From assembly GCF_900155945.1 (NCBI RefSeq), contig NZ_FTMN01000008.1, positions 1 through 64,000 of the forward strand: a stretch of DNA of 64,000 nt. Reading direction: 5' to 3'. Source of the stretch: Marinobacterium stanieri. GTDB lineage: Bacteria; Pseudomonadota; Gammaproteobacteria; Pseudomonadales; Balneatricaceae. Below, piece by piece: positions 2 to 16,158 of the stretch; the stretch's first letter is position 1, and every line of letters starts with the position of its first letter. A program made the position numbers and the translations under genes. Under the pieces are notes generated by a model. That model saw nothing but the letters and a program-made list of their open reading frames with translations. It was not told the DNA's origin and ran no database searches.

Positions 2-502
2 TTTTGGTTTACGTATTCGGCGGTTCAAGCGTTCGAAAATGGCTCGTTTGTCGGCCTCGCTGCTGAAAACGCTTTACCGGACACTCCTGCGCCTGTTCCT
101 CAAGTCGATTCTTCTGGTACTGGGCATGCTCCTGGTGTCGTTCCTGCTCCGAGTGGGCCTCAAGCTTCTATTTCTGTAGTCGAATCCGCTGATCCCTTCC
201 AGGCATTAATTGATGCAGGGGCCCAGCCCTATGTATCGGCCGTTGTCTATGTCCGTTCCACCGGAGCCGTTTATTACCGTGTTCATGTGTATTTTGATGA
301 TCAGCTCCTGGACGTATTCGATCAGGATGCACTGGAAGAGTTGGGATACCTTGCCCAGTACCGCAAATCCGGCCTGCTGTTAAACAAACACGGAAACACC
401 ATCTTATTGCGCGAGTACTACGGCAGCGCGGGCACCCGTCGCGAGGAACCTATGGGAGGAGCAGAGGGTGCCCGCGCGGCCCCCGTCCCGACGATCCTGT
501 AG
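2..502 (+). CDS. zot: Zot-like filamentous phage assembly protein, C-terminal part (5' truncated by window edge)
   Basis: An open frame enters from the left edge and stops at TAG 500-502, leaving 166 residues. It is followed by a replication initiator and an integrase, the zot-rep-int order known at the right end of Pf-type inoviruses. The visible part starts with a hydrophobic/aromatic stretch (FWFTYSAVQAF), then a Pro/Ser/Gly-rich linker, then a compact domain (AQPYVSAVVYV, YYRVHVYFDD, LEELGYLAQY) that fits the periplasmic C-terminal domain of Zot/pI proteins. In inoviruses pI is the inner-membrane ATPase that drives virion extrusion; its ATPase half lies outside the window. An apparent start at 287 is only an internal codon of this frame. 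The family call rests on pattern and context. Confidence 0.72.
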   Translation, partial: FWFTYSAVQAFENGSFVGLAAENALPDTPAPVPQVDSSGTGHAPGVVPAPSGPQASISVVESADPFQALIDAGAQPYVSAVVYVRSTGAVYYRVHVYFDDQLLDVFDQDALEELGYLAQYRKSGLLLNKHGNTILLREYYGSAGTRREEPMGGAEGARAAPVPTIL

Positions 503-512
503 CACGTCTCAA

Positions 513-1847
513 ATGATTACAACCAGTGGCTGGTTAGACAGCTATACACCCTTGTTACATCAGGTGCAGATGATGAAGAAAGAATCCTTAACCCGTAGAA
601 ACCAGAATTTTGAACCCTGTGAAGATGGTCGTTTCTTTGTAACCCCCACATTGGAGACCGTAGACCTTTCGGGTGTCCGTGTTATTGATTGCTCCGTTGA
701 TACGGTACGTCAGTTGTATAACGGGATGCTTGATCATGACCTCCTGGACAATTTGGAGGAAAGGTTAGAGGCAGAACACCGTCCAGTGATTGAGTACCAG
801 GGGCATCTATGGCGACTCAAAAGAGGCGGTAAGGCTGGTTTCAAATTCCTGCTGCAGAATGCTGAATTCGGCGTGATTATCATGGTGAAGAACAACCACA
901 CCACGGCTGACTGTGTGGGAAGTCACTGTAAGATTGAAGTTTCACCCAAGCTGATACGAGACCGATCCCCTGATGTACTGCAACACCAGATGGATGAACT
1001 GGCAGCAGGATGGTTCGTAATAGCTCCGTCCCCCTGTGGTGTGGCTATTCACCTGGCTACCGACTGGCAAGGATGGGTTCCCCCGTCTGATTTCGTGGAC
1101 CGCCTTACCTGTCGATCCCAGCGGGTCAATGATCGTAACGGCTTCCAGTCCCTTGAAGTTACCACTGGTGAAGTCGCCAGCATCTACGGCCGTGGTCAGT
1201 CCTACACCTTTGGCACCGTCTCCAGCCTGCAGGCAGCCTTATACAACAAGTCACGGGAGATCGTTGCCCATGACAAGATCGACTACTTCCACGGCATCTG
1301 GAGTGCCAAGGTTGATCACGACCTGACAACTCCTCTCTGGCAACCGGATCAGGACGTATGGCGTCTGGAATTCCGTTTCTCTCAAACGGTGCTCCGTCAG
1401 TTTGCCGACTACAACACCACTGAAGAGAAGAAGTGCAATCTCAGTACCTATGAGGCTGCATCCGAGTATTTAGCGAACCTCTGGGCCTATGGGCTTGATC
1501 GTTTCCGGTTGGACCTGAATAGACGTTACGTGGACCCGTTCTGGACCCTGCTGAATGAGGACACCGACTGGATCAAGCCGGCGTCTGACTTCATCCCCAA
1601 GCGGAAATACAAAACGGCCGGTGTCGGCAATGAACGAAACGTAGCCCTTGCACTGGGAAACCTGCTCTCCATTTATGCCAGGAACAACATCACCGCTCGC
1701 AAGGCGTGGAGCTGCCTAAAAAAGTCCGGCCTCTGGCGTGATCTGATGGGGTATATCAAGGCCAGAGAGCTCACAAAGGCTGACCTCTTTGATCTCATTG
1801 AGCGGGGCCTGTTGGAACGGCGACTGACGAGCAAGGTGGCTGCATAG
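513..1847 (+). CDS. Inovirus replication initiation protein (phage/plasmid rolling-circle Rep)
   Basis: 444 residues from ATG 513, 10 bp after the zot stop. A GTG at 468 would also be open but overlaps zot, so 513 is preferred. The sequence resembles Pf-type replication initiators (gene II functional equivalents), which nick the double-stranded replicative form to start rolling-circle synthesis. Features seen: basic N-terminal region, a central stretch with GVAIHLATDW and SYTFGTVSSLQAALYNKSRE, and a tyrosine-rich section that could carry the nicking residue. The stop overlaps the integrase GTG (TAGTG), so the two are probably translated together. I assign the family by position between zot and int and by overall character; I could not pin the catalytic Tyr. 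Confidence 0.75.
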   Translation: MITTSGWLDSYTPLLHQVQMMKKESLTRRNQNFEPCEDGRFFVTPTLETVDLSGVRVIDCSVDTVRQLYNGMLDHDLLDNLEERLEAEHRPVIEYQGHLWRLKRGGKAGFKFLLQNAEFGVIIMVKNNHTTADCVGSHCKIEVSPKLIRDRSPDVLQHQMDELAAGWFVIAPSPCGVAIHLATDWQGWVPPSDFVDRLTCRSQRVNDRNGFQSLEVTTGEVASIYGRGQSYTFGTVSSLQAALYNKSREIVAHDKIDYFHGIWSAKVDHDLTTPLWQPDQDVWRLEFRFSQTVLRQFADYNTTEEKKCNLSTYEAASEYLANLWAYGLDRFRLDLNRRYVDPFWTLLNEDTDWIKPASDFIPKRKYKTAGVGNERNVALALGNLLSIYARNNITARKAWSCLKKSGLWRDLMGYIKARELTKADLFDLIERGLLERRLTSKVAA

Positions 1848-2830
1848 TGGCAATATCCCCTCTGCCGGATGGACGCTGGAAGGTCGATATCGAACCGATC
1901 AAAGGGCGTCGTTTCCGCCGCATACTCAAGACCAAAGCTGATGCAAAACGCTTTGAGCTGGTTTGCAAGCAGAAAATTACCCTGGAACCTGAATGGTCGC
2001 CCAAGGCCAAGGACCTGCGGAAACTGAGTGAGTTAATCGAACTCTGGTATGACCTGCATGGCCACACCCTGCGCGATGGTGTACGCAGGAAAACCGCGCT
2101 GCTCAATATGGCGGCTCGCCTCAAGGACCCTGCAGCCATAAAGCTGACACCGACGGCGTATATGAAAGACCGTCGCAAACGGTCCGAGGCTGGGATTACC
2201 GGCAAGACACTGAACAATGAGCTGACGTATATCCGTGCGGTGTATAACGAACTCTACTCCCTGGACCAACTCGATTACGAAAACCCACTGGCCAAGGTGA
2301 AACCGCTACGACTTCAGCAGAAGGAATTGTCCTGGTTAACGCAGGACCAGATTCAGGAGTTGTTGGCTGCTATCCGCTCCCGATCGGCAGGGGCAAACCC
2401 CCACCTGGAGCTGATTGTGCTGGTGTGTCTGGCAACGGGTGCCCGTTGGTCAGAAGCCCAGAACCTGAAACCGTCATCTGTACGGAATAGGGCAGTGACC
2501 TTCAGTAACACCAAAAACGGCAAGGTTAGAACCGTACCCATCTCCCAGGAACTCGAACAACGGCTAAAACAGCATTGGAAAGAGTACGGACTGTTCACCA
2601 GCTCAATCGGTGCATTCCGCAGGGCATTGGAGAAAACCACGATAGAGCTACCCAAGGGCCAGGCAGCTCATGTACTACGGCATACGTTCGCCAGTCACTT
2701 CATGATGAACGGCGGGAATATTCTAGTTTTAAAAAAAGCACTTGGGCATTCTTCTTTAGCAATGACATTACGTTACTCACATCTTGCCAAAGACCAATTG
2801 CAAAGTGTTGTTGCAATGGCTCCTGTCTGA
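1847..2830 (+). CDS. int: Tyrosine recombinase, Pf-type prophage integrase
   Basis: 327 residues from a GTG that overlaps the Rep stop; GGTGG lies just upstream. The N-terminus (PDGRWKVDIEP, GRRFRRILKTKADAKRFE) is the AP2-like arm-binding region of phage integrases. The catalytic set is complete: R200 (ATGARWSEA), K226, H275-x-x-R278 (HVLRHTFASH), H301 (LGHSSLAMT) and nucleophile Y310 (LRYSHL). It should catalyse integration and excision of the filamentous prophage. Odd point: the last about 35 codons (from about 2723) are clearly AT-rich, like the neighbouring dprA-like gene and unlike the first 290 codons, which may mark a recombination joint. It ends 2 bp from the convergent dprA-like stop. 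Confidence 0.9.
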   Translation: MAISPLPDGRWKVDIEPIKGRRFRRILKTKADAKRFELVCKQKITLEPEWSPKAKDLRKLSELIELWYDLHGHTLRDGVRRKTALLNMAARLKDPAAIKLTPTAYMKDRRKRSEAGITGKTLNNELTYIRAVYNELYSLDQLDYENPLAKVKPLRLQQKELSWLTQDQIQELLAAIRSRSAGANPHLELIVLVCLATGARWSEAQNLKPSSVRNRAVTFSNTKNGKVRTVPISQELEQRLKQHWKEYGLFTSSIGAFRRALEKTTIELPKGQAAHVLRHTFASHFMMNGGNILVLKKALGHSSLAMTLRYSHLAKDQLQSVVAMAPV

Positions 2831-2832
2831 TT

Positions 2833-3855
2833 TTAAAAAAGAGCCATAGTACTTTCTTTTTTGGCTGATGATTCTATAAGTGAATCTAAATCATTTTTAC
2901 AGTGTGCATCAATTTCAAAATATTGATCTTTGTTCTTAAGGATCGTTATTCTTTCTAATGAACCTTTAATAGTGTTTAGATAGTTTGATTTTTCAATATC
3001 AGAGCTGTTTATTATTTTTAGATTACCTTCTATCTTGGGTTCTTTGTTCGCGATATCCTTAGGCGTTGGGTTGATCACGATAAGCCTCCTGCCGTATTTT
3101 AGTGCCGCTTTGCTGGCATGCAAACTACCTCCTTTTATGTCGGTTTGAACCAAAAAGGTAGCCATGCTTAAACCTGCTTGTATGCGGTCTCTTTCAACAA
3201 ATGCTGACCGATATCCTTTTGATTGATAACCGTATTCCGATATGATGAGACCGTTTTTATCAACTATCTCATGCGCTAAATTTTTGTTTTCAGCCGGATA
3301 TGTTTTGTTCAGGTGAGTGCCAAATACAGCGATGGTTTTTCCATTAACGGATATACACGCCCTGTGCGCCTCTGTGTCAATTCCTTTAGCGAGACCGCTG
3401 ACTATGCACCAACCATTATTTGAAAACCATTTAGATACTCTATTGGTAATTTCAACCCCGTGCTCTGTCGGTTCTCTTGTGCCAATGATTGCAATGCATT
3501 TGTGTTTCAATAACTCCACATTTCCGTTGCAGTATAGTATTGCCGGTGAGTCGTGAGTAAATTTCAAAGAGGTGGGGAACTCAGTATCCAAAATAGATAC
3601 TATTCTGTGCTGGCTAGTTTCAGCTATAGCGCAGTCGTCTAAAGCCTCATTGATTGCATTCTTGGAAAGTAATAGATCCTTTTCCAATTCGTTAATTACT
3701 TTGTGCTTAAATGTTGTTCTATCTTGGGAGATAGAGTGAAGAAAAGCCTTTCCACGGCCTTTAAGCTTCGAAATTGAAAGCAAATAGAATGTGTCTTCAG
3801 AGATTATTTCTGAAGACACATTTAAACTTAGTCCAAACTTTCTGAGTAGTTGCAT
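2833..3855 (-). CDS. DprA/Smf-like Rossmann-fold DNA-processing protein on a mobile island
   Basis: 340 residues from ATG at 3855 (GGAA upstream). A TTG nine codons further up is open but has no ribosome site. Smf/DprA motifs run in order: IAIIGTREPT (121-130), IVSGLAKGIDTEAHR (151-165), AVFGTHLNKTYPAEN (176-190), ISEYG, RDRIQAGLS (222-230, for the usual RNRIIAGLS) and GGSLHASKAAL (242-252). DprA binds ssDNA and loads RecA in natural transformation. This copy is not the chromosomal one by context: it is AT-rich, sits between a phage integrase and tmRNA, and overlaps the upstream HAD/PRTase gene by 28 bp, so the two form one transcription unit. DprA/LOG-type proteins also occur in phage-defence loci. 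The role here is inferred, not shown. Confidence 0.82.
   Translation of the reverse strand: MQLLRKFGLSLNVSSEIISEDTFYLLSISKLKGRGKAFLHSISQDRTTFKHKVINELEKDLLLSKNAINEALDDCAIAETSQHRIVSILDTEFPTSLKFTHDSPAILYCNGNVELLKHKCIAIIGTREPTEHGVEITNRVSKWFSNNGWCIVSGLAKGIDTEAHRACISVNGKTIAVFGTHLNKTYPAENKNLAHEIVDKNGLIISEYGYQSKGYRSAFVERDRIQAGLSMATFLVQTDIKGGSLHASKAALKYGRRLIVINPTPKDIANKEPKIEGNLKIINSSDIEKSNYLNTIKGSLERITILKNKDQYFEIDAHCKNDLDSLIESSAKKESTMALF
3788..3822. repeat. Perfect 14-bp inverted repeat inside the 5' part of the dprA-like gene
   Basis: Arms 3788-3801 (AATGTGTCTTCAGA) and 3809-3822 are exact reverse complements around a 7-base centre. The repeat starts 5 bases after the HAD/PRTase stop codon (3828-3830, read on the minus strand) and covers codons 12-23 of the dprA-like gene. 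In RNA it would form a strong hairpin directly behind the first stop and about 30 nt after the second start. It could couple or throttle translation of the second gene, be a processing site, or bind protein. Confidence 0.8.
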
Positions 3856-5273
3856 GATGGTTCCAAGTTGTATCCGCTGCAAGATAGAAAATAAACTCCA
3901 TCTTTTCGCCTACGTTTTTTTACCATTCCTCTTCCACACATTGGGCAATCTTTCTCAATATAATTTTCGGTATTTTTACATTGAGGGTCCTCATGATAAC
4001 CAGTGCAGCCCCAGAAGTATATGTCAGAGTCTTTACGTTTTATTATTTGCATCATCCTTGAACATTCAGGGCACTCTTTTTCTTCTAAGCTTTTAATTGT
4101 GACGGTTTTAGCTATTGCTAATGCTTTTACTGATGAAGGCTCTAACGCTTCAAGAAGCTCAATTGCAACTCGGAGTGTTGCTCCAGTAGTGATAACGTCA
4201 TCAATGATTAGGATATTTGATCCGTTGATAGTATCAATATGGCTCTTGTTAACAGAGATAGAGCTTTTTGCGGAGTCGTAGCGCTCATCTCCTGCAAGAG
4301 TCTTTTGAGAGCCTGCATCCTTCGAGAACTCAAAGATGTCGGGAATAAATAATATTTTACTATCATTCAGCTTAGCCTGAACTCTACTTAGAAGGTCTTC
4401 AAGTCTTTGTGGGCGTCCACTCTTAGCAGGTATAACTGTTACGATATCGTATTTATCAAACTCATGGTGATAGTCAGGAATTTTTTCGACGCAGTGGCTA
4501 ATCAGGTCAACCCAGTAATCAGGAGCTTTAAAATTTTCATTTGAGTTTTTTTCGGCAATTTTTTTTGACAGTTTATGATTATGGTGATATTCGATGGTGT
4601 CAATAGATTTCTGGCTAAAATATCGGCCGAGAACAAATATCTTCATGTCGTCCTTTAGTGTGACGACATTGGCAGAAAGATCAACCGGTAAGAAATAAAG
4701 ACGTTTTTTGCTGAAGTCAAAAGACTCGTGTTCTTCAGTCAGTTCGGCGATGAGCTTAAGGTTTTCTGGTGAGTCAATTTCATCTAGTAAATATTCAGTA
4801 CTAAGCTCAATTGATGGCGACTGAGATACAGGGTATCTATGAGCCCAGGAACAAATAGCAGGTTTAACTTTCGCTCTGTAAGCAGCAACTATGTCTTTAT
4901 AGTTGTCACCGATATAGATAATGTTTTCGTTAGCTTCTAATTCAAGCTCATCTACTGCCTTTAGAATCCCATCAGGATTTGGTTTAGCCCCCTTCCTGCC
5001 AACATCGTTATAGGTAACTATTACATCAAAGTCTGGCAATCCTATGTGATCCAGAACCTTTTGGGCATATGCACGGGCTGAGTTGGTAACGATGCCAACC
5101 TTTACCCCTTTCTCTTTTAACGCAACGATCAGGTCATGGCATTTTGGGTAGGCATGTACATTCCGCAGCGTTTCCTCATTCAGAAGGTCATAGTTTCCTC
5201 TCTCGCGAATTTCTTCAATTTCTTTTGTGTTAGCCAGAGTGTTGTCTAGATCAAACAGGACCGCTTGCAGCAT
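3828..5273 (-). CDS. HAD phosphatase - phosphoribosyltransferase fusion with two C-terminal topoisomerase-type zinc ribbons
   Basis: 481 residues from ATG 5273, with AAAAGGTG upstream. Order: HAD domain about 1-150 (nucleophile DLDNT 8-12, VTNS 62-65, GAKPNP with K97, IGDNYKD 122-128); a linker/partner region about 190-280; a type-I PRTase core with the PRPP loop IIDDVITTGATL (356-367) and a VIPAKSGRPQR stretch before it; then two Cys4 ribbons (C401/C404/C423/C432 and C443/C446/C465/C474) like those at the C-terminus of topoisomerase I. The PRTase resembles ComF of competence systems, and a DprA-like gene follows. This points to DNA-bound nucleotide or PRPP chemistry. Composition is AT-rich, fitting horizontal transfer. 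No specific substrate can be named. Confidence 0.78.
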   Translation of the reverse strand: MLQAVLFDLDNTLANTKEIEEIRERGNYDLLNEETLRNVHAYPKCHDLIVALKEKGVKVGIVTNSARAYAQKVLDHIGLPDFDVIVTYNDVGRKGAKPNPDGILKAVDELELEANENIIYIGDNYKDIVAAYRAKVKPAICSWAHRYPVSQSPSIELSTEYLLDEIDSPENLKLIAELTEEHESFDFSKKRLYFLPVDLSANVVTLKDDMKIFVLGRYFSQKSIDTIEYHHNHKLSKKIAEKNSNENFKAPDYWVDLISHCVEKIPDYHHEFDKYDIVTVIPAKSGRPQRLEDLLSRVQAKLNDSKILFIPDIFEFSKDAGSQKTLAGDERYDSAKSSISVNKSHIDTINGSNILIIDDVITTGATLRVAIELLEALEPSSVKALAIAKTVTIKSLEEKECPECSRMMQIIKRKDSDIYFWGCTGYHEDPQCKNTENYIEKDCPMCGRGMVKKRRRKDGVYFLSCSGYNLEPSCNYSESLD

Positions 5274-5370
5274 GAGGCACCTTTTCCCTAAGGGTTATTC
5301 GATAGGTTGGATCGAGGTTAACAAAAAGAGGCCGGGAGTTGTAAGTTCTTAAGGCTTTCGGCGTAGGGCG

Positions 5371-5391
5371 TTTTCGACACTTTTTCGACAC
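5371..5391. repeat. Two tandem 11-bp direct repeats near the tmRNA terminator
   Basis: The unit TTTTCGACACT occurs at 5371-5381 and again at 5382-5391 (last base shared with the following T run). A period of about one helical turn fits protein-binding sites. Its place in the island boundary zone, 25-50 bp from the ssrA terminator, suggests recombinase arm sites, but this is inference. Confidence 0.45.
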
Positions 5392-5417
5392 TTTTGGGGA
5401 GTTGCTGGGTCCAGAAA

Positions 5418-5445
5418 CGAAAAAAGCCTGTAAAAACAGGCTTTT
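5418..5445 (-). terminator. Rho-independent terminator of the tmRNA gene
   Basis: Read on the minus strand: AAAAGCCTG (stem, 9 bp), 6-base loop, CAGGCTTTT, running into a T tract. It starts 14 bases after the tmRNA CCA end. Confidence 0.85.
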
Positions 5446-5458
5446 AACGTTAGCAATT

Positions 5459-5817
5459 TGGTGGAGGTGGCGGGTTTCGAACCCGCGTCCGCCAATCCTC
5501 TGCCTCAAGATCTACATGCTTAGGCATCTCTATTTAATTAACCCGTCACGACCCGAGAGCCAGGGTGTTATGGGCGAGCTCTTTTAGTTTTAACCGTTCA
5601 GCTTAGAGCAAAGCATCCAGGCGATTCTGTCTCGAATGACACCGCAAAATCAATAAGTTACAGACACCTTAAAGTGCGGCGCTAGCTGGCTTATGCAGCT
5701 AGAGCGTAGTTATCGTCGTTTGCAACTATAACTGTGTGATGAGGGATTTACGAGAATCATCACGTTCTCGGCATGCACCTAAGGGTTCGTAATCGGCGTC
5801 GAAGCCAAGTCACCCCC
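5459..5817 (-). ncRNA. ssrA: Transfer-messenger RNA (tmRNA)
   Basis: 359 nt. The 5' end GGGGGTG (5811-5817) pairs with CACCTCC before the encoded ACCA at 5459-5462 (one G-U pair), forming the tRNA-like acceptor stem. The T-arm carries GGTTCGAAACC. The tag frame lies at 5691-5723: resume codon GCA, then codons for ANDDNYALAA with a TAA stop, giving tag AANDDNYALAA, close to the usual gammaproteobacterial tag. With SmpB it rescues stalled ribosomes and marks the nascent chain for proteolysis. smpB lies 54 bp upstream on the same strand. The foreign DNA starts just beyond its 3' end, a common integration site. A TACAAT at 5833-5838 (minus strand) may be its -10 box. Confidence 0.97.
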
Positions 5818-6502: not shown

Positions 6503-7870
6503 ATGGAAACTAAGCAGTCTATTCACGGCTCCTGGGCGAACCGATGGATCTTCATCCTCGCCGCGACAGGGTCGGCTGTCGGACTGGGTAACATCTGGAA
6601 GTTCCCGTACATCACCGGTGAAAATGGCGGGGGCGCCTTCGTTCTGGTTTATCTGTTCTGCATCCTGCTGGTCGGTATTCCGATCATGATGGCGGAGATT
6701 CTGGTGGGTCGCCGTGCCCGGCAGAGTCCGATCAATGCGGTACGCGAAACGGCGGCTGAAGCGGGCCGCAGCAAGCATTGGGGCCTGATCGGCTGGCTGG
6801 GTGTTCTTGCCGGCTACATTATCTTTTCCTTTTATTCCGTCGTAGCCGGCTGGGTGCTGCACTACATCGCGGGCATGGGGACAGGGCAGCTTGTCGATAT
6901 CGGCAGTGAACAGGCCGGGCAGCGTTTTACCGATCTGCTGGCCAGCCCTGATCAGATGCTGATGTGGCATACCGTGTTCGTATTGATGGTGGTCGCGGTG
7001 GTTGCTGGCGGCGTGAACAAGGGCCTGGAGCGTGCTACCAAGGTGATGATGCCGGCACTGTTCCTGCTGTTGATCGTGTTGCTGGGCTATTCCGTTAACT
7101 CAGGCGGTTTTGCCGAGGGCTGGTCTTTCCTGTTCAGCTTCTCGCCGGAAGCGCTGACCTGGGATGCGGTACTGGTTGCGCTGGGTCACTCCTTCTTTAC
7201 CCTGTCGCTGGGCATGGGCGCTATCATGGCCTACGGTTCCTACATGGGTAAGAAAGACTCCATCGGTTCCACTGTTATCACTATCGGTGTACTGGATACG
7301 CTGGTCGCGCTGGTAGCAGGCCTGTGTATCTTCCCGATCGTATTTGCCAACCAGATGGACCCGGCTGCGGGCCCTGGCCTGATGTTTATCACCCTGCCGG
7401 TGGCCTTTGGTCAGATGCCGGGTGGACAGGTATTCGGCTTCCTGTTCTTCACTCTGGTCGGTGTAGCGGCCTGGACGTCTGCGATCTCCCTGCTTGAACC
7501 GGCGACGGCCTGGGTTGTCGAGCGCTTTGGCATGCGTCGTCCGCTGGCGGCTCTGGTGCTGGGCGTCATTATCTGGTTGATGGGTATCGCATCCCTGCTG
7601 TCGTTCAACCACTGGGCAGAAATCAAGATCTTCAGCCTGAGTGTGTTCGACTTCCTCGACTTCCTGACGGCCAATATCATGCTGCCATTGAGTGGTTTGC
7701 TGATTGCGCTGTATGCAGGCTGGGTACTGACCAGTAACATGACCCGTGATGAGCTGGCGCTGGGCTGCAACAAGGTATACGCGGCCTGGTGGTTCGTGAT
7801 TCGCTACATTGCGCCCGTTGCCGTAATGATCATCTTTGTGGTCAATTTGTATGACAAGCTGGCGGGCTGA
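6503..7870 (+). CDS. Sodium:neurotransmitter symporter (SNF/NSS) family transporter
   Basis: 455 residues, about 11-12 membrane segments. The family signature [14 protein letters not shown] (23-36) lies in the broken TM1 helix that forms the Na+ and substrate site; [11 protein letters not shown] follows. Bacterial members (LeuT, MhsT, TnaT) are Na+-driven amino-acid importers of this length. Divergent from smpB, 151 bp apart, and followed 22 bp later by ratA. The substrate cannot be read from sequence. Confidence 0.92.
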
Positions 7871-7892
7871 GGCTGGCTGAAATAGGTAGGTT

Positions 7893-8324
7893 ATGACGCA
7901 GGTAAAACGCAGCGCACTGGTGTTACACACGGCCGAGCAGATGTTCGACCTGGTAAACGATGTGCGCCAGTACCCTCAATTCCTGCCCTGGTGCTCGGCG
8001 ACCGAAGTGGTCGCCGAGTCCGATCAGGTGCTTGAGGCGACGCTGTATCTGGCCAAGGGTGGTTTAAAGTACAGCTTTACCACGCGTAACCAGTTGGATC
8101 GTCCGCGCCAGATGGATATTGCGCTGGTTGAAGGGCCTTTCTCCTCCCTGCATGGTATCTGGGTGTTTACACCGCTCAGTGATGAGGCCTGCAAGGTGGA
8201 GCTGACCATGGAGTTCGAGTTCCAGGGCAAGCTGACCGGCATGGCCATGTCCAAGGTGTTCAGCTCGGTTGCAACGACACTGGTTGATGCTTTTGTCACC
8301 CGTGCTGATGAAGTCTACGGTTGA
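7893..8324 (+). CDS. ratA: RatA-family START/cyclase-dehydrase-like protein
   Basis: 143 residues from ATG 7893. A START/Bet v1-like fold: VNDVRQYPQFLPWCSATEVV near the N-terminus, a central beta-rich section (LKYSFTTRNQL), LTMEFEFQGKL and a C-terminal helix ending VTRADEVYG. In E. coli RatA was reported to block 70S association. The same fold in mitochondria is Coq10, which binds ubiquinone, so a quinone role is an equally good reading. It forms a pair with rnfH 8 bp downstream, as in many Gammaproteobacteria. Confidence 0.93.
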   Translation: MTQVKRSALVLHTAEQMFDLVNDVRQYPQFLPWCSATEVVAESDQVLEATLYLAKGGLKYSFTTRNQLDRPRQMDIALVEGPFSSLHGIWVFTPLSDEACKVELTMEFEFQGKLTGMAMSKVFSSVATTLVDAFVTRADEVYG

Positions 8325-8332
8325 GGGAAAAG

Positions 8333-8659
8333 ATGATTCAGGTTGAAGTAGCGTACGCACTGCCGCATGAACAGAAGATCATTGCGGTACAGGTGGAAGA
8401 GGATTGCACGGCGCGTGATGCCGTGATTCGCTCTGGCATTGCCGAAGTATTTCCTGAAATTGACCCTGACAGCATCCCGATGGGGATTTTTGGCAAGGCG
8501 ATCAAGGATCCGGGCACAACCGTGCTGCGGGAAGGCGACCGTGTGGAGCTTTACCGCCCGCTCATCGCTGATCCCAAAGAAGTACGTGCCAAGCGTGCAG
8601 CCAAAATGAAGGCGCAGAAAGAAGCCGAGCAGAAGGAAAAGTCAGAGAAGGATGCCTGA
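8333..8659 (+). CDS. rnfH: RnfH-family ubiquitin-like protein
   Basis: 108 residues from ATG 8333 with GAGGG 7 bases before it. A TTG at 8321 overlaps the ratA stop but has no good ribosome site. A small beta-grasp protein: VEVAYALPHEQKI at the start, then DSIPMGIFGKAI, and the conserved GDRVELYRPLIADPKEVRAK, followed by a lysine/glutamate-rich tail. Almost always found next to ratA; the function is not firmly known, and the name comes from rnf operons. Converges with bamE 29 bp downstream; no clear terminator lies between them. Confidence 0.93.
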   Translation: MIQVEVAYALPHEQKIIAVQVEEDCTARDAVIRSGIAEVFPEIDPDSIPMGIFGKAIKDPGTTVLREGDRVELYRPLIADPKEVRAKRAAKMKAQKEAEQKEKSEKDA

Positions 8660-8688
8660 CATTCAGGGCCTGGCATCCGTTGTAGCGG

Positions 8689-9027
8689 TTACTGCTGGTC
8701 CTGACCCTGATTGGGCTGGAAATCACCGGTGAGGCGATGCAGCTTGCCGTCCTGGAAGAACAGCGTGAGGCGCTCGCGATAGCGCTGGTCGTCCCCGTCC
8801 TTGATGGTGTAGATGTAATCCCAGCGATTTTCGCTGAAGCTATCATTCACCAAAGGGGTGCCCATGATGTACCGTACCTGCGCAGGGGTCATGCCAGGGC
8901 GGAGCTGGTCCACCATTTCCTGAGTGACGAGGTTACCCTGAGGGATATCAATCTTGTACACGCCGGGGAATTCGGTACAGCCGGTAATAATAACGGCAAG
9001 GATGGCGCTGATAAAAACCTTTTGCAT
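8689..9027 (-). CDS. bamE: Outer-membrane assembly lipoprotein BamE (SmpA/OmlA)
   Basis: 112 residues from ATG 9027 with GGAAG upstream; a TTG 11 codons earlier is rejected. Signal peptide with lipobox IITGC, so the mature protein is acylated at C17. The SmpA/OmlA fold shows [18 protein letters not shown], then the [10 protein letters not shown] strand and a C-terminal [10 protein letters not shown]. BamE is an accessory lipoprotein of the Bam complex that inserts beta-barrel proteins into the outer membrane. It is divergent from fur, the usual pairing in pseudomonads. Confidence 0.96.
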
Positions 9028-9115
9028 CGGACAATGACTTCCGTTTTTCAGCCTAAACAAAGATAATGGAGTCTAACATTGCAAATCCCGAACAGCATAG
9101 TGATTGAGGCCTAAT

Positions 9116-9550
9116 ATGGCACTGGAAAATCAGGAACTGCGGAAGGCCGGATTGAAGGTCACACTGCCGCGGGTAAAAATTTATCAGATACTGGAGCGCG
9201 CCGGAGAGGGCGATCACTTCAGTGCTGAAGATATCTACAAGCTCCTGATGGAGCAGGGTGAGGATGTGGGTTTGGCCACGGTATACCGTGTACTGACTCA
9301 GTTTGAAGCAGCAGGTCTGGTGTCACGTCACCACTTTGATGGCGGTCATTCCGTATTTGAGCTGGCCCGTGAAGAGCACCATGACCATGTCGTGTGTGTG
9401 AAATGCGGCCGTGTCCGCGAGTTTACCGAGCCGCAGGTGTCCGAGATTCTGGACAAGGTAGCCGACGAGCTGGGCTTCAGCATCACCGATCGTACTCTGT
9501 ACCTCTACGGCGTCTGCAAGGGCGGCTGTGAGGAAAGCGGCAAGAAGTAA
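9116..9550 (+). CDS. fur: Ferric uptake regulator Fur
   Basis: 144 residues from ATG 9116 with GAGG 7 bases upstream; the TTG at 9104 is not used. The winged-helix N-terminus includes TLPRVKIYQIL and the recognition helix GLATVYRVLTQFEAAGLV (52-69). Metal sites: H32-33-type residues, the HHDHVVC run (88-94), structural zinc cysteines C94/C97 and C134/C138. Fe2+-Fur represses iron and haem uptake. A Fur box is visible in this window before hemP (55471-55495). The short bamE/fur spacer has GATAATG followed by a poor second half, so autoregulation is possible but unproven. Confidence 0.98.
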   Translation: MALENQELRKAGLKVTLPRVKIYQILERAGEGDHFSAEDIYKLLMEQGEDVGLATVYRVLTQFEAAGLVSRHHFDGGHSVFELAREEHHDHVVCVKCGRVREFTEPQVSEILDKVADELGFSITDRTLYLYGVCKGGCEESGKK

Positions 9551-9575
9551 GTCGCTGAATTCGATACTGTCGGCA

Positions 9576-11243
9576 TCAGGCCGACAGCATCTCCTGCGCG
9601 TGTGTGAGGGTAGTGCGGGTAATATCGACCCCGCCCAGCATGCGCGCCACTTCTTCCACTCGCTGCTTGTCACTCAAGCGACTGACGCGAGTTTGTTTCC
9701 CAGTTGTTTTACCGTTCTTGCTGACGAACAGGTGCTGATCGCCCTGTGCCGCGACCTGTGGCTGGTGGGTCACGCAGAGAATCTGTACGCGTTTGCCCAG
9801 TGCGTGCAGCATGCGGCCAACCACTTCAGCAATGCCGCCACCGATACCGACATCCACTTCGTCGAAGACCAGTGTGGGTGTGCTGCTGCTTTGTGCGGTA
9901 ATGACCTGGATCGCCAGGCTGATACGTGACAGCTCGCCACCGGAGGCAACCTTGGCCAGTGCACGGGCCGGCTGGCCTTCATTGGTGCTGATCAGGAATT
10001 CCACTTCTTCCAGCCCGTTGGCGTTGTAGCGCTCCTCATCCAGCGGGGTCAGGCAGGCTGTAAAGTGTGCAGCAGGCATGCCCAGTGCGTGCAGTTGCTC
10101 ATCGACGCGTGTGCCCAATGTTTCGGCCGCCTGTTGGCGCGCCAGGCTCAGCTCGGCAGCGCTGCCGAGATACTCGTCGCGTGCGTGTACCACCTCGGCT
10201 TCCATTTCGACCAGCGCTTCGTCACTCTGGGTGAGCCCGGCCAGTTCCTGCTGCAATGATTGATGGAAAGCAGGAAGTTCTTCCGGTAGCAGGCGGTGCT
10301 TGCGGGCCACGTCATAGATGGCCGACAGGCGCTCTTCTACTTCCTGTTGGCGCTCGGGATTGATTTCGATGCCGTCGATAAAGTGACGTACCTCGCGGCT
10401 GGCTTCTTCCACCTGAATCAGGGCGCTGTTGAGCATCTCGTCGGCCTGGCGCAGACGTTCATCCTGGGCATCCAACTGTCCCAGAAGTTGCAGGCAGTGG
10501 TGCAGCATGGACAGGCAGTGAGTATCGTCGCCTTCGCTGCTCAGCTGCAGCAGCTGATGGCCGCTGGAAAGCAGACCGTCGGCATTTTCCAGACGCTGCT
10601 GCTCCTGCTCCAGTGCTTCCAGCTCACCGGGCTGCAGGGCCAGCTGGTCCAGCTCTTCAACCTGATAGCTGAGCAGCTGTACGCGGGCGTTGCGCTCTTC
10701 GGATACTTCGGTGAGGGCGCGGAATTCGGAGTGCAGGCGGCGCCATTTGTGAAAGTGGCGGCGAACCTGGTCCGACAGCTCGCCCTGGCCGCCAAAGGCA
10801 TCCAGCAGCACGCGGTGGTGATCCTTTTTCAGCAGGCGCTGGTGCTCGTGCTGGCCGTGTATATCCACCAGAAACTGGCCGAACTCCCGCATCAGGGTGA
10901 GGGGGACGGGCCGGCCGTTGATATAGCTGCGGCTGCGTCCTTCTCGGGTAATGACGCGCCGCATGAGGCATTCGCGCGGATCGCATTCCAGCTCATGTTC
11001 CTGTAGCCAGAGCCGGGCAGAGCCCAGTTCGCGGATATCGAAGCAGGCGGTGAGTTCGGCACGATCGGCGCCCTTGTACAGGCTGTCGCTGTCGGCACGG
11101 TTGCCCAGGCACAGCCCCAGCGCATCCAGCATGATGGACTTGCCGGCACCGGTTTCACCGCTGATCACGGTCATTCCGTTATCCAGTTCCACTTCCAGAG
11201 CATCGACAATCGCGAAGTTGCGGATCGTAATCTGCGTCAGCAT
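9576..11243 (-). CDS. recN: DNA repair protein RecN
   Basis: 555 residues, the normal length for this SMC-like ATPase. Walker A GETGAGKS at 29-36, the ABC signature region SGGELSRISLAIQ, and Walker B/D-loop LVFDEVDVGIGGG near the C-terminus, with long coiled coils between (150-370). RecN is induced strongly by SOS and helps tether DNA ends in double-strand-break repair. Two LexA-like boxes lie directly upstream. It converges with fur, and a CTGTCGGC stem spans its stop codon. Confidence 0.97.
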   Translation of the reverse strand: MLTQITIRNFAIVDALEVELDNGMTVISGETGAGKSIMLDALGLCLGNRADSDSLYKGADRAELTACFDIRELGSARLWLQEHELECDPRECLMRRVITREGRSRSYINGRPVPLTLMREFGQFLVDIHGQHEHQRLLKKDHHRVLLDAFGGQGELSDQVRRHFHKWRRLHSEFRALTEVSEERNARVQLLSYQVEELDQLALQPGELEALEQEQQRLENADGLLSSGHQLLQLSSEGDDTHCLSMLHHCLQLLGQLDAQDERLRQADEMLNSALIQVEEASREVRHFIDGIEINPERQQEVEERLSAIYDVARKHRLLPEELPAFHQSLQQELAGLTQSDEALVEMEAEVVHARDEYLGSAAELSLARQQAAETLGTRVDEQLHALGMPAAHFTACLTPLDEERYNANGLEEVEFLISTNEGQPARALAKVASGGELSRISLAIQVITAQSSSTPTLVFDEVDVGIGGGIAEVVGRMLHALGKRVQILCVTHQPQVAAQGDQHLFVSKNGKTTGKQTRVSRLSDKQRVEEVARMLGGVDITRTTLTHAQEMLSA

Positions 11244-11266
11244 GGCGAATACCTACGGGTTGGTTC

Positions 11267-11301
11267 TAGTGGTTTTATATACAGTGGTTATTTATACAGT
11301 A
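11267..11301 (-). promoter_or_regulatory. Tandem LexA (SOS) boxes upstream of recN
   Basis: On the minus strand two overlapping near-copies occur: CACTGTATATAAAACCACTA (11267-11286) and TACTGTATAAATAACCACTG (11282-11301). Both keep CTGT and the AT-rich centre; the second half (CCAC) departs from ACAG. The first resembles the known E. coli recN box. Lying 24-58 bp before the ATG, they would overlap the recN promoter. Confidence 0.75.
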
Positions 11302-11363
11302 TTTACTGTATAAGTCATTTTTGCCATTGCTGCAATCCTTGAGCGAAAAAATACAGCTGAGCG

Positions 11364-11391
11364 CTTGAAGCCGAACAAAGCAGCCCCATAT
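11364..11391 (+). promoter_or_regulatory. Sigma-32 heat-shock promoter of grpE
   Basis: -35 CTTGAAG (11364-11370), 13-bp spacer, -10 CCCCATAT (11384-11391). This matches the sigma-32 consensus CTTGAAA / CCCCATNT almost exactly and lies about 46 bp before grpE. Confidence 0.85.
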
Positions 11392-11437
11392 AGATGAGCA
11401 ACGAGGTGAAACCCGAGATTTCAGTTGGAGAGACCTG

Positions 11438-12025
11438 ATGGCGAAAGAGCAGCAGAACACCCAAGAGCCCCTGGAAGGGGTTCAGGACGCAGTCGACACT
11501 GCGGTTGAAGCAGGCGCGGCAGAGCCGCAGGCTGCGGATGATACTCAAGCGGATGTGCTGCAGCAGTTGGAAGAGTCCCGTGCCGAAGTTGATGCGCTGC
11601 AAAAGGAACTGGCTGAGCTTCAGCCGCGCGCGCAGGCCGAGATTCAGAACATCCGCCGTCGTGCCGAGCAGGACGTGGAAAAGGCCCACAAGTTTGGCCT
11701 GGAGAAGTTCGCCAACGAACTCCTGCCTGTTGTCGACAGCCTGGAGCGTGCCATCGAGGCGAGCCAGGGCGAAGGCGAGCAGCTGCAAGCGATCCGTGAA
11801 GGGGTCGAAATGACGCTGAACCTGTTCCTGTCCAGCATGGAGAAGTTCAACGTCGAACAGGTGAACCCGGAAGGCCAGCCGTTCAACCCTGAGCACCATC
11901 AGGCGATGTCCATGGTGCCGGCTGAAGGCGTAGCGCCGAACACGGTAGTAACCGTGGTGCAGAAAGGCTACCTGCTGAATGGTCGTCTGATGCGCCCGGC
12001 GATGGTGATGGTCGCAAAAAGCTGA
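11438..12025 (+). CDS. grpE: Nucleotide exchange factor GrpE
   Basis: 195 residues from ATG 11438 with GGAGAG upstream. Acidic disordered N-terminus (to about 45), a long coiled coil (46-110, [21 protein letters not shown]), then the beta-wing with [19 protein letters not shown] and [19 protein letters not shown], the family hallmark. GrpE is a dimer that opens the DnaK nucleotide site and acts as a thermosensor. It is first in a grpE-dnaK-dnaJ(-dapB) cluster behind a sigma-32 promoter. Confidence 0.97.

Positions 12026-14159: not shown

Positions 14160-16158
<1,999 letters not shown>

Follow-up and report, generated by a model that had tools for sequence, protein, structure and literature searches.

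A probable ShosTA toxin-antitoxin module beside the attachment site of a Pf-like filamentous prophage at ssrA in Marinobacterium stanieri

Near the start of contig NZ_FTMN01000008.1 of Marinobacterium stanieri, within the 64,000-nucleotide stretch analysed here (the window), two adjacent genes encode a DprA-like protein and a protein combining a HAD domain, a phosphoribosyltransferase (PRTase) domain and two zinc ribbons. Sequence and fold similarity, prophage location, conserved HAD and PRTase motifs and recurrence on phages and plasmids make it highly probable that the two genes form a toxin-antitoxin defence module of the ShosTA type, which a Pf-like filamentous prophage integrated at ssrA carries as cargo beside its attachment site. 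An earlier note on the same DNA had recognized the two genes and their domains, which are borne out by the open reading frames and by Pfam, and had been unable to assign them to a named system, a judgement that is overturned by PADLOC and Foldseek. Judged by its sequence the pair looks intact, and it would belong to a system already described, to which a carrier is newly added. Its toxin represents a form that has received less study, in which a phosphatase-type motif is intact and zinc ribbons are added.

The upstream gene (3828-5273, minus strand) encodes the 481-residue ShosT-type toxin, with HAD, PRTase and two four-cysteine ribbons assigned from Pfam, PADLOC, PHROG, an AlphaFold2 model and Foldseek. 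The downstream gene, read in the same direction (2833-3882, minus strand), encodes the ShosA-type DprA-like antitoxin of up to 349 residues, assigned from Pfam, PADLOC and its model. Its start codon is uncertain, with candidates read from the sequence at TTG 3882, ATG 3855 and GTG 3819; the gene overlap described in the earlier note holds for the first two starts and is lost with the third. The AT-richness of the pair against its surroundings was confirmed, with guanine-plus-cytosine (GC) contents of 38.0% for the DprA-like gene and 39.9% for the toxin gene versus 57.5% for window positions 6503-12000. The DprA-like protein matches Pfam DNA_processg_A with an E-value of 1.5e-59, and the toxin matches HAD_2 (9.3e-26), Pribosyltran (3.3e-10) and, across two stretches, Zn_ribbon_Top1 (6.1e-11; 42.4 bits, gathering score 32). 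Within the toxin, the HAD domain spans residues of about 1-170 and the PRTase about 195-395, the latter with a phosphoribosyl pyrophosphate (PRPP) loop, IIDDVITTG, that contains D358 and D359. Read from the toxin sequence, each ribbon has four cysteines, eight in total (C401/C404/C423/C432 in ribbon 1 and C443/C446/C465/C474 in ribbon 2). All five aligned toxins share D8, D10, T63, K97 and D123 of the HAD domain and D358, D359, T362, G364 and T366 of the PRTase.

The name ShosTA is supported by both sequence models and fold comparison. PADLOC matched the DprA-like protein to ShosA at 4.1e-79 and the toxin to ShosT at 8.1e-14 over residues 232-393, and the whole toxin is covered by PHROG family 16932 (function unknown) at 4.4e-159. 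AlphaFold2 models of the two proteins, made from thin alignments of 5 and 6 sequences, had a mean predicted local distance difference test score (pLDDT) of 82 and a predicted template modelling score (pTM) of 0.75 for the toxin, and 86 and 0.86 for the antitoxin. In a Foldseek search of the PDB, the first three ranks for the toxin model were the ShosT structures 8zvd, 8zvb and 8zvc (E 1.9e-12 to 1.0e-10, 420-435 columns), and the antitoxin model found ShosA 8zva at rank 2, behind a Rhodopseudomonas DprA; with VIA-align, 8zva stood at rank 7 with DprA entries ahead of it. Weighing against the assignment, the template modelling (TM) scores between the toxin model and ShosT were low (0.28-0.34) despite those ranks, and the domain placement in the toxin model is therefore unconfirmed. 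ShosT was not among the 50 VIA-align rows listed for the toxin model, all of which matched the HAD part only, an absence that amounts to no evidence.

The same searches bear on an improbable alternative, in which the pair would be a PsyrTA/RqlHI-type system, with a DprA antitoxin and a RecQ-type toxin carrying a PRTase part, minus its helicase. The DprA-type antitoxin is common to both, the PsyrT model gives an E-value of 1e-10 on the toxin's PRTase part, and PsyrA matches the DprA-like protein at 3.3e-33. In addition, HAD-PRTase proteins with C-terminal extensions lie beside DprA in two loci (L014 and L171), so that the PsyrT and ShosT groups may intergrade. However, the score of ShosA is far better than that of PsyrA, and the top Foldseek matches of the toxin model are ShosT. 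The toxin of PsyrTA/RqlHI is a RecQ helicase, according to a table in PMC8790059, whereas no helicase is found among the families listed for the window toxin (15 from Pfam, 4 from PADLOC and the best 25 of 83 NCBIfam rows). In one of the two loci just mentioned, L171 (G946:C13), positions 437-3432 hold DprA and, after it, a 1563-residue open frame for a HAD-PRTase protein, and the Klebsiella plasmid L014 starts similarly; L171 is perhaps a form between ShosT and the helicase-bearing PsyrT.

Returning to ShosTA, three carriers allow closer comparison. The E. coli system (PDB 8zva-8zvd, 9vzo, 9w2p, 9w2q; phage P2_4C9) likewise sets a DprA-like antitoxin beside a HAD-like and PRTase toxin on a phage, but its toxin has degenerate HAD motifs and no ribbon was found in it, where the window toxin keeps the HAD motifs and has two ribbons; the gene order is also reversed, with DprA first in P2_4C9. 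The closest protein to the toxin in the phage collection is that of the filamentous Pseudomonas phage PfAC02a (OR790968), with 50.2% identity over 100% of the toxin; its DprA-like neighbour is 48.8% identical over 74%. This phage has the same gene order, the same domains and two ribbons, and its record annotates the pair as ShosT and ShosA. PMC11878078 lists PfAC02a as a ShosTA carrier, and describes a tRNA-Met integration site and an additional Kiwa system, in both of which it differs from the window prophage. The PfAC02a pair also adjoins the repressor, whereas the window pair adjoins the integrase gene. The third carrier, the Psychrobacter plasmid pA3H5, keeps both genes and their order, with 37.9% identity over 100% of the toxin and 49.1% over 77% of the antitoxin; it differs in being a 6.2-kb plasmid and in ribbon 1 of its toxin, which is without the fourth cysteine.

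The prophage itself was delimited from the sequence around the pair. The contig begins at window base 1, and the order from there is the tail of an open frame that occupies the Zot position (2-502, plus strand, assigned by eye and from gene order rather than by family search), a presumed replication initiator (468-1847, plus strand, phrog_1159 with no function given, named from the PfAC02a gene order), the tyrosine integrase of the prophage (1847-2830, plus strand, Pfam and PHROG), the pair, and ssrA, the transfer-messenger RNA gene that is the integration target (5459-5817, minus strand, confirmed in the window). A 74-bp sequence at 5411-5484 (minus strand), comprising the 3' end of ssrA and a terminator-like hairpin, recurs exactly at G000:C2:3591-3664 in the same genome; the two copies are the right and left attachment sites. 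Inside the repeat on the C2 side are an Xis-like gene (31% over 58 residues) and a repressor-like gene (51% over 53 residues) related to those of PfAC02a. The prophage therefore spans C2, an assembly gap and the window, with the pair inside it, between the integrase gene and the right attachment site; the location between an integrase and ssrA given in the earlier note was thus correct but incomplete. The Pf-like features found are the integrase, replication gene, Xis, repressor and attachment repeat, and the portion with the coat proteins and whole Zot falls in the gap between contigs C2 and C5.

A sister genome from the genus (G003, locus L185) has a whole related filamentous prophage at this site, with 70% DNA identity to window positions 483-2724. 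There the integrase gene ends at 15603 and is followed at 15622-15630 by the start of the attachment copy, leaving no space for cargo; in the window the corresponding distance is 2.6 kb and is filled by the pair. Third-position GC of the window integrase gene drops from 0.63 to 0.22 over its last 37 codons (2720-2830), placing the start of the AT-rich block inside this gene, and the 3' end of the integrase gene and the cargo block seem to have been acquired jointly, a mosaic read from composition alone. A distant DNA search with the integrase end and the cargo matched 83 phage records, none over more than 80% of the query, and the ten listed matched the integrase gene with 4-5% cover. In the genus, ssrA is present in all seven remaining genomes, five of which have further partial copies of its 3' end; the site is therefore probably used by several elements in the genus.

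Several further observations were made around the two attachment sites. An exact 26-bp direct repeat lies just inside both of them at unequal distances (window 5370-5395 and G000:C2:3464-3489) and could be an arm-type integrase site. At the other attachment-proximal position of the prophage, G000:C2:2451-3335 (minus strand) encodes a 294-residue protein with hydrophobic stretches recognized by eye and no Pfam or PADLOC match at 0.01. Two copies of a 124-bp repeat, 90% identical (G000:C2:3837-3960 and 1899-2022, locus L009), lie on either side of the left attachment site, the outer one a short way beyond it. This suggests that part of a second filamentous prophage, in tandem, survives next to the Hp1-3 genes. 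These are three genes beyond the left attachment site (G000:C2:4294-7145, L009) that match PADLOC Hp1 (6.5e-65), Hp2 (6.6e-37) and Hp3 (7.1e-5), and they are perhaps the three-gene system of the P2 hotspot that, according to PMC9122126, also carries the DprA-PRTase pair. Elsewhere in the genome there is a Zot-family gene (G000:C16:170992-171579, 6.5e-18); at 1e-3, the frames around it (L010) showed no similarity to the phage proteins of PfAC02a or of the window.

Counting recurrences of the pair had been proposed in the earlier note. Of 11 loci with ribbon-bearing toxins inspected for a partner, window included, 10 have a DprA-like gene next to the toxin: the window, PfAC02a (L004), two Psychrobacter loci (L005 and L017), the IMG/VR locus L097, the viral locus L164 (whose toxin lacks its beginning), Acidobacteria (L018), Mesorhizobium (L019), Bradyrhizobium (L011) and Sinorhizobium fredii (L012). 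L098, a near copy of L097, was left out of the count, and the exception, L013, is a 152-residue fragment beside insertion sequence (IS) elements. L164 also has primase-like and AlpA-like frames and was read as P4-like by eye only. The viral loci used were L097/L098 out of 14 in one search (L162/L163 being their contigs) and L164 and L165 out of 7 in another.

The ribbon-bearing form of the toxin is rare in the genus, class, phylum and order samples. It was present in one of eight genomes of the genus; five of the other seven gave one weak match each, which covered the ribbons alone and lay in a frame of between 882 and 916 residues; these frames were taken for topoisomerase I and set aside. 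Matches at 1e-10 were found in 5/369 genomes of the class sample, and the phylum sample had matches in 39/398 and the order sample in 3/390, with the whole query matched each time in the own genome only; the two others in the order matched through the HAD part, both beside a DprA gene. Eleven class and phylum loci were viewed, in plus-strand frames, and the minus-strand matches L119, L122, L123, L124 and L130 fall outside this view; of the six plus-strand matches seen, five were rejected as ComF-like by eye and L121 as topoisomerase-like. PDLC03012 matched 1/398 genomes in the phylum sample, with none in the own genome and 0/14 controls. A contig scan with the HAD motifs as patterns gave at least 80 loci, of which L017, L018 and L019 match most of the toxin and 77 match only within its residues 1-211 (L020-L022 were inspected). 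An Enterococcus HAD match (L015) lies beside sugar genes, and an Agrobacterium HAD gene (L159) has no annotated DprA within the stretch shown.

It is very unlikely that the pair instead serves the element in DNA uptake, as the earlier note had also considered, or in recombination, with a DprA/ComF-like function. The DprA-like protein reached 187.0 bits with the NCBIfam dprA equivalog and the toxin matched ComF at 8.3e-10, but both fall under the curated NCBIfam cut-offs (191.15 bits for dprA; 38.9 bits against 233.55 for comF). The genome has a second DprA, a 380-residue frame on C15 with 36% identity over residues 105-269, and no competence gene was recognized by eye in the surrounding open reading frames, where no dedicated search was made. 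In PfAC02a and Psychrobacter L005 the pairs lie among phage or plasmid genes, and the uptake proposal found no support. That the pair is a silent or decaying, functionless passenger is equally hard to credit, as both window frames are open over their full length, with conserved positions in the HAD, the PRTase and the ribbons, even though the relative L013 is a fragment and the DprA of L160 is split over two frames.

The contrast with the solved ShosT was followed through the HAD motifs. The P2_4C9 toxin is letter-identical to solved ShosT 8zvb across 424 residues, and Pfam gave a weak HAD match and a PRTase match on it and found no ribbon. In HAD motif I, it reads VIFSIADVV where the window toxin reads VLFDLDNT, and in motif IV it reads GRSQED where the window toxin reads GDNYKD. 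Because the solved toxin is without an intact HAD and without ribbons, the HAD-intact, ribbon-bearing form deserves note. A comparison covered 27 proteins drawn from 25 sources; most had been retrieved by their similarity to the window, and the counts are therefore not frequencies. It showed motif I intact in 16 (15 by pattern and L170 by eye), degenerate in three (L151, L172 and L160b), not recognized in seven and not assessable in one (L164). Two ribbon-like patterns were seen in seven of these proteins, one in five and none in 15; none of the three HAD-degenerate proteins had one, and L152 and L165 each have one with the HAD not recognized.

The domains also occur in other arrangements: PRTase, DprA and HAD are separate genes on S. 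meliloti pHRB800, L170 has a DprA gene and a HAD gene, HAD is fused to DprA in Deinococcus, and in Priestia the order is permuted, with the PRTase part before HAD. In Deinococcus wulumuqiensis pDrdI (L016, 1-5428), the HAD-DprA fusion adjoins an uncharacterised gene and a DEAD/DEAH helicase, possibly a separate defence arrangement. In Rhizobium beringeri pRlX1 (L160, 2263-6427), two ShosT-like toxins, one with an intact and one with a degenerate HAD, flank a DprA in two frames. Tentatively, and with less than even confidence, we suggest that the window toxin represents a HAD-active, ribbon-bearing ShosT class working differently from the HAD-degenerate solved one. In such a class, the HAD would remove pyrophosphate or dephosphorylate the PRTase product, making the reaction one-way, and the ribbons would direct it to DNA undergoing replication; the three activities HAD, PRTase and DprA would form an exchangeable kit, seen as fusions, three genes, a HAD-DprA fusion or a permuted order. 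The literature searched contained nothing on the contrast with solved ShosT, the key paper lying outside its coverage, and we do not claim that the contrast is unpublished.

A mechanism for the pair can be proposed from the literature. According to PMC9122126, E. coli is protected from T7 and lambda by a similar DprA-PRTase pair; this, with the homology to ShosTA, favours the defence role put forward in the earlier note. The earlier note had also conjectured that the pair senses foreign single-stranded DNA; the review PMC12593503 names T7 Gp0.7 as the trigger. In this review ShosT disturbs the purine nucleotide pool, so that DNA is damaged and the infected cell is lost, and the earlier guess of PRPP or nucleotide chemistry agrees with it. 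By analogy, ShosA, with its DNA-binding DprA fold, would counteract ShosT until an infecting phage upsets their balance, whereupon ShosT would disturb the purine nucleotide pool and DNA damage would lead to the loss of the infected cell. The best reading of the window pair is as a toxin-antitoxin cargo of the abortive type, which would act on nucleotide pools. In the lineage of the window toxin, we infer that the HAD could be functional as a phosphatase or a pyrophosphatase whose activity is coupled to that of the PRTase, and that the two topoisomerase-type ribbons could hold the toxin on DNA.

The filamentous phage life cycle produces single-stranded DNA. As this phage makes its own single-stranded DNA and its cargo is guarded by a DprA-type antitoxin, it must therefore avoid triggering that cargo. 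A pair that had no name is now tied to a known system, and a filamentous prophage at ssrA is added to the ShosTA carriers beyond the published Pf phage. With the HAD degenerate in the solved ShosT and intact in related toxins, the pyrophosphatase activity that has been reported may stem from a different source in each group.
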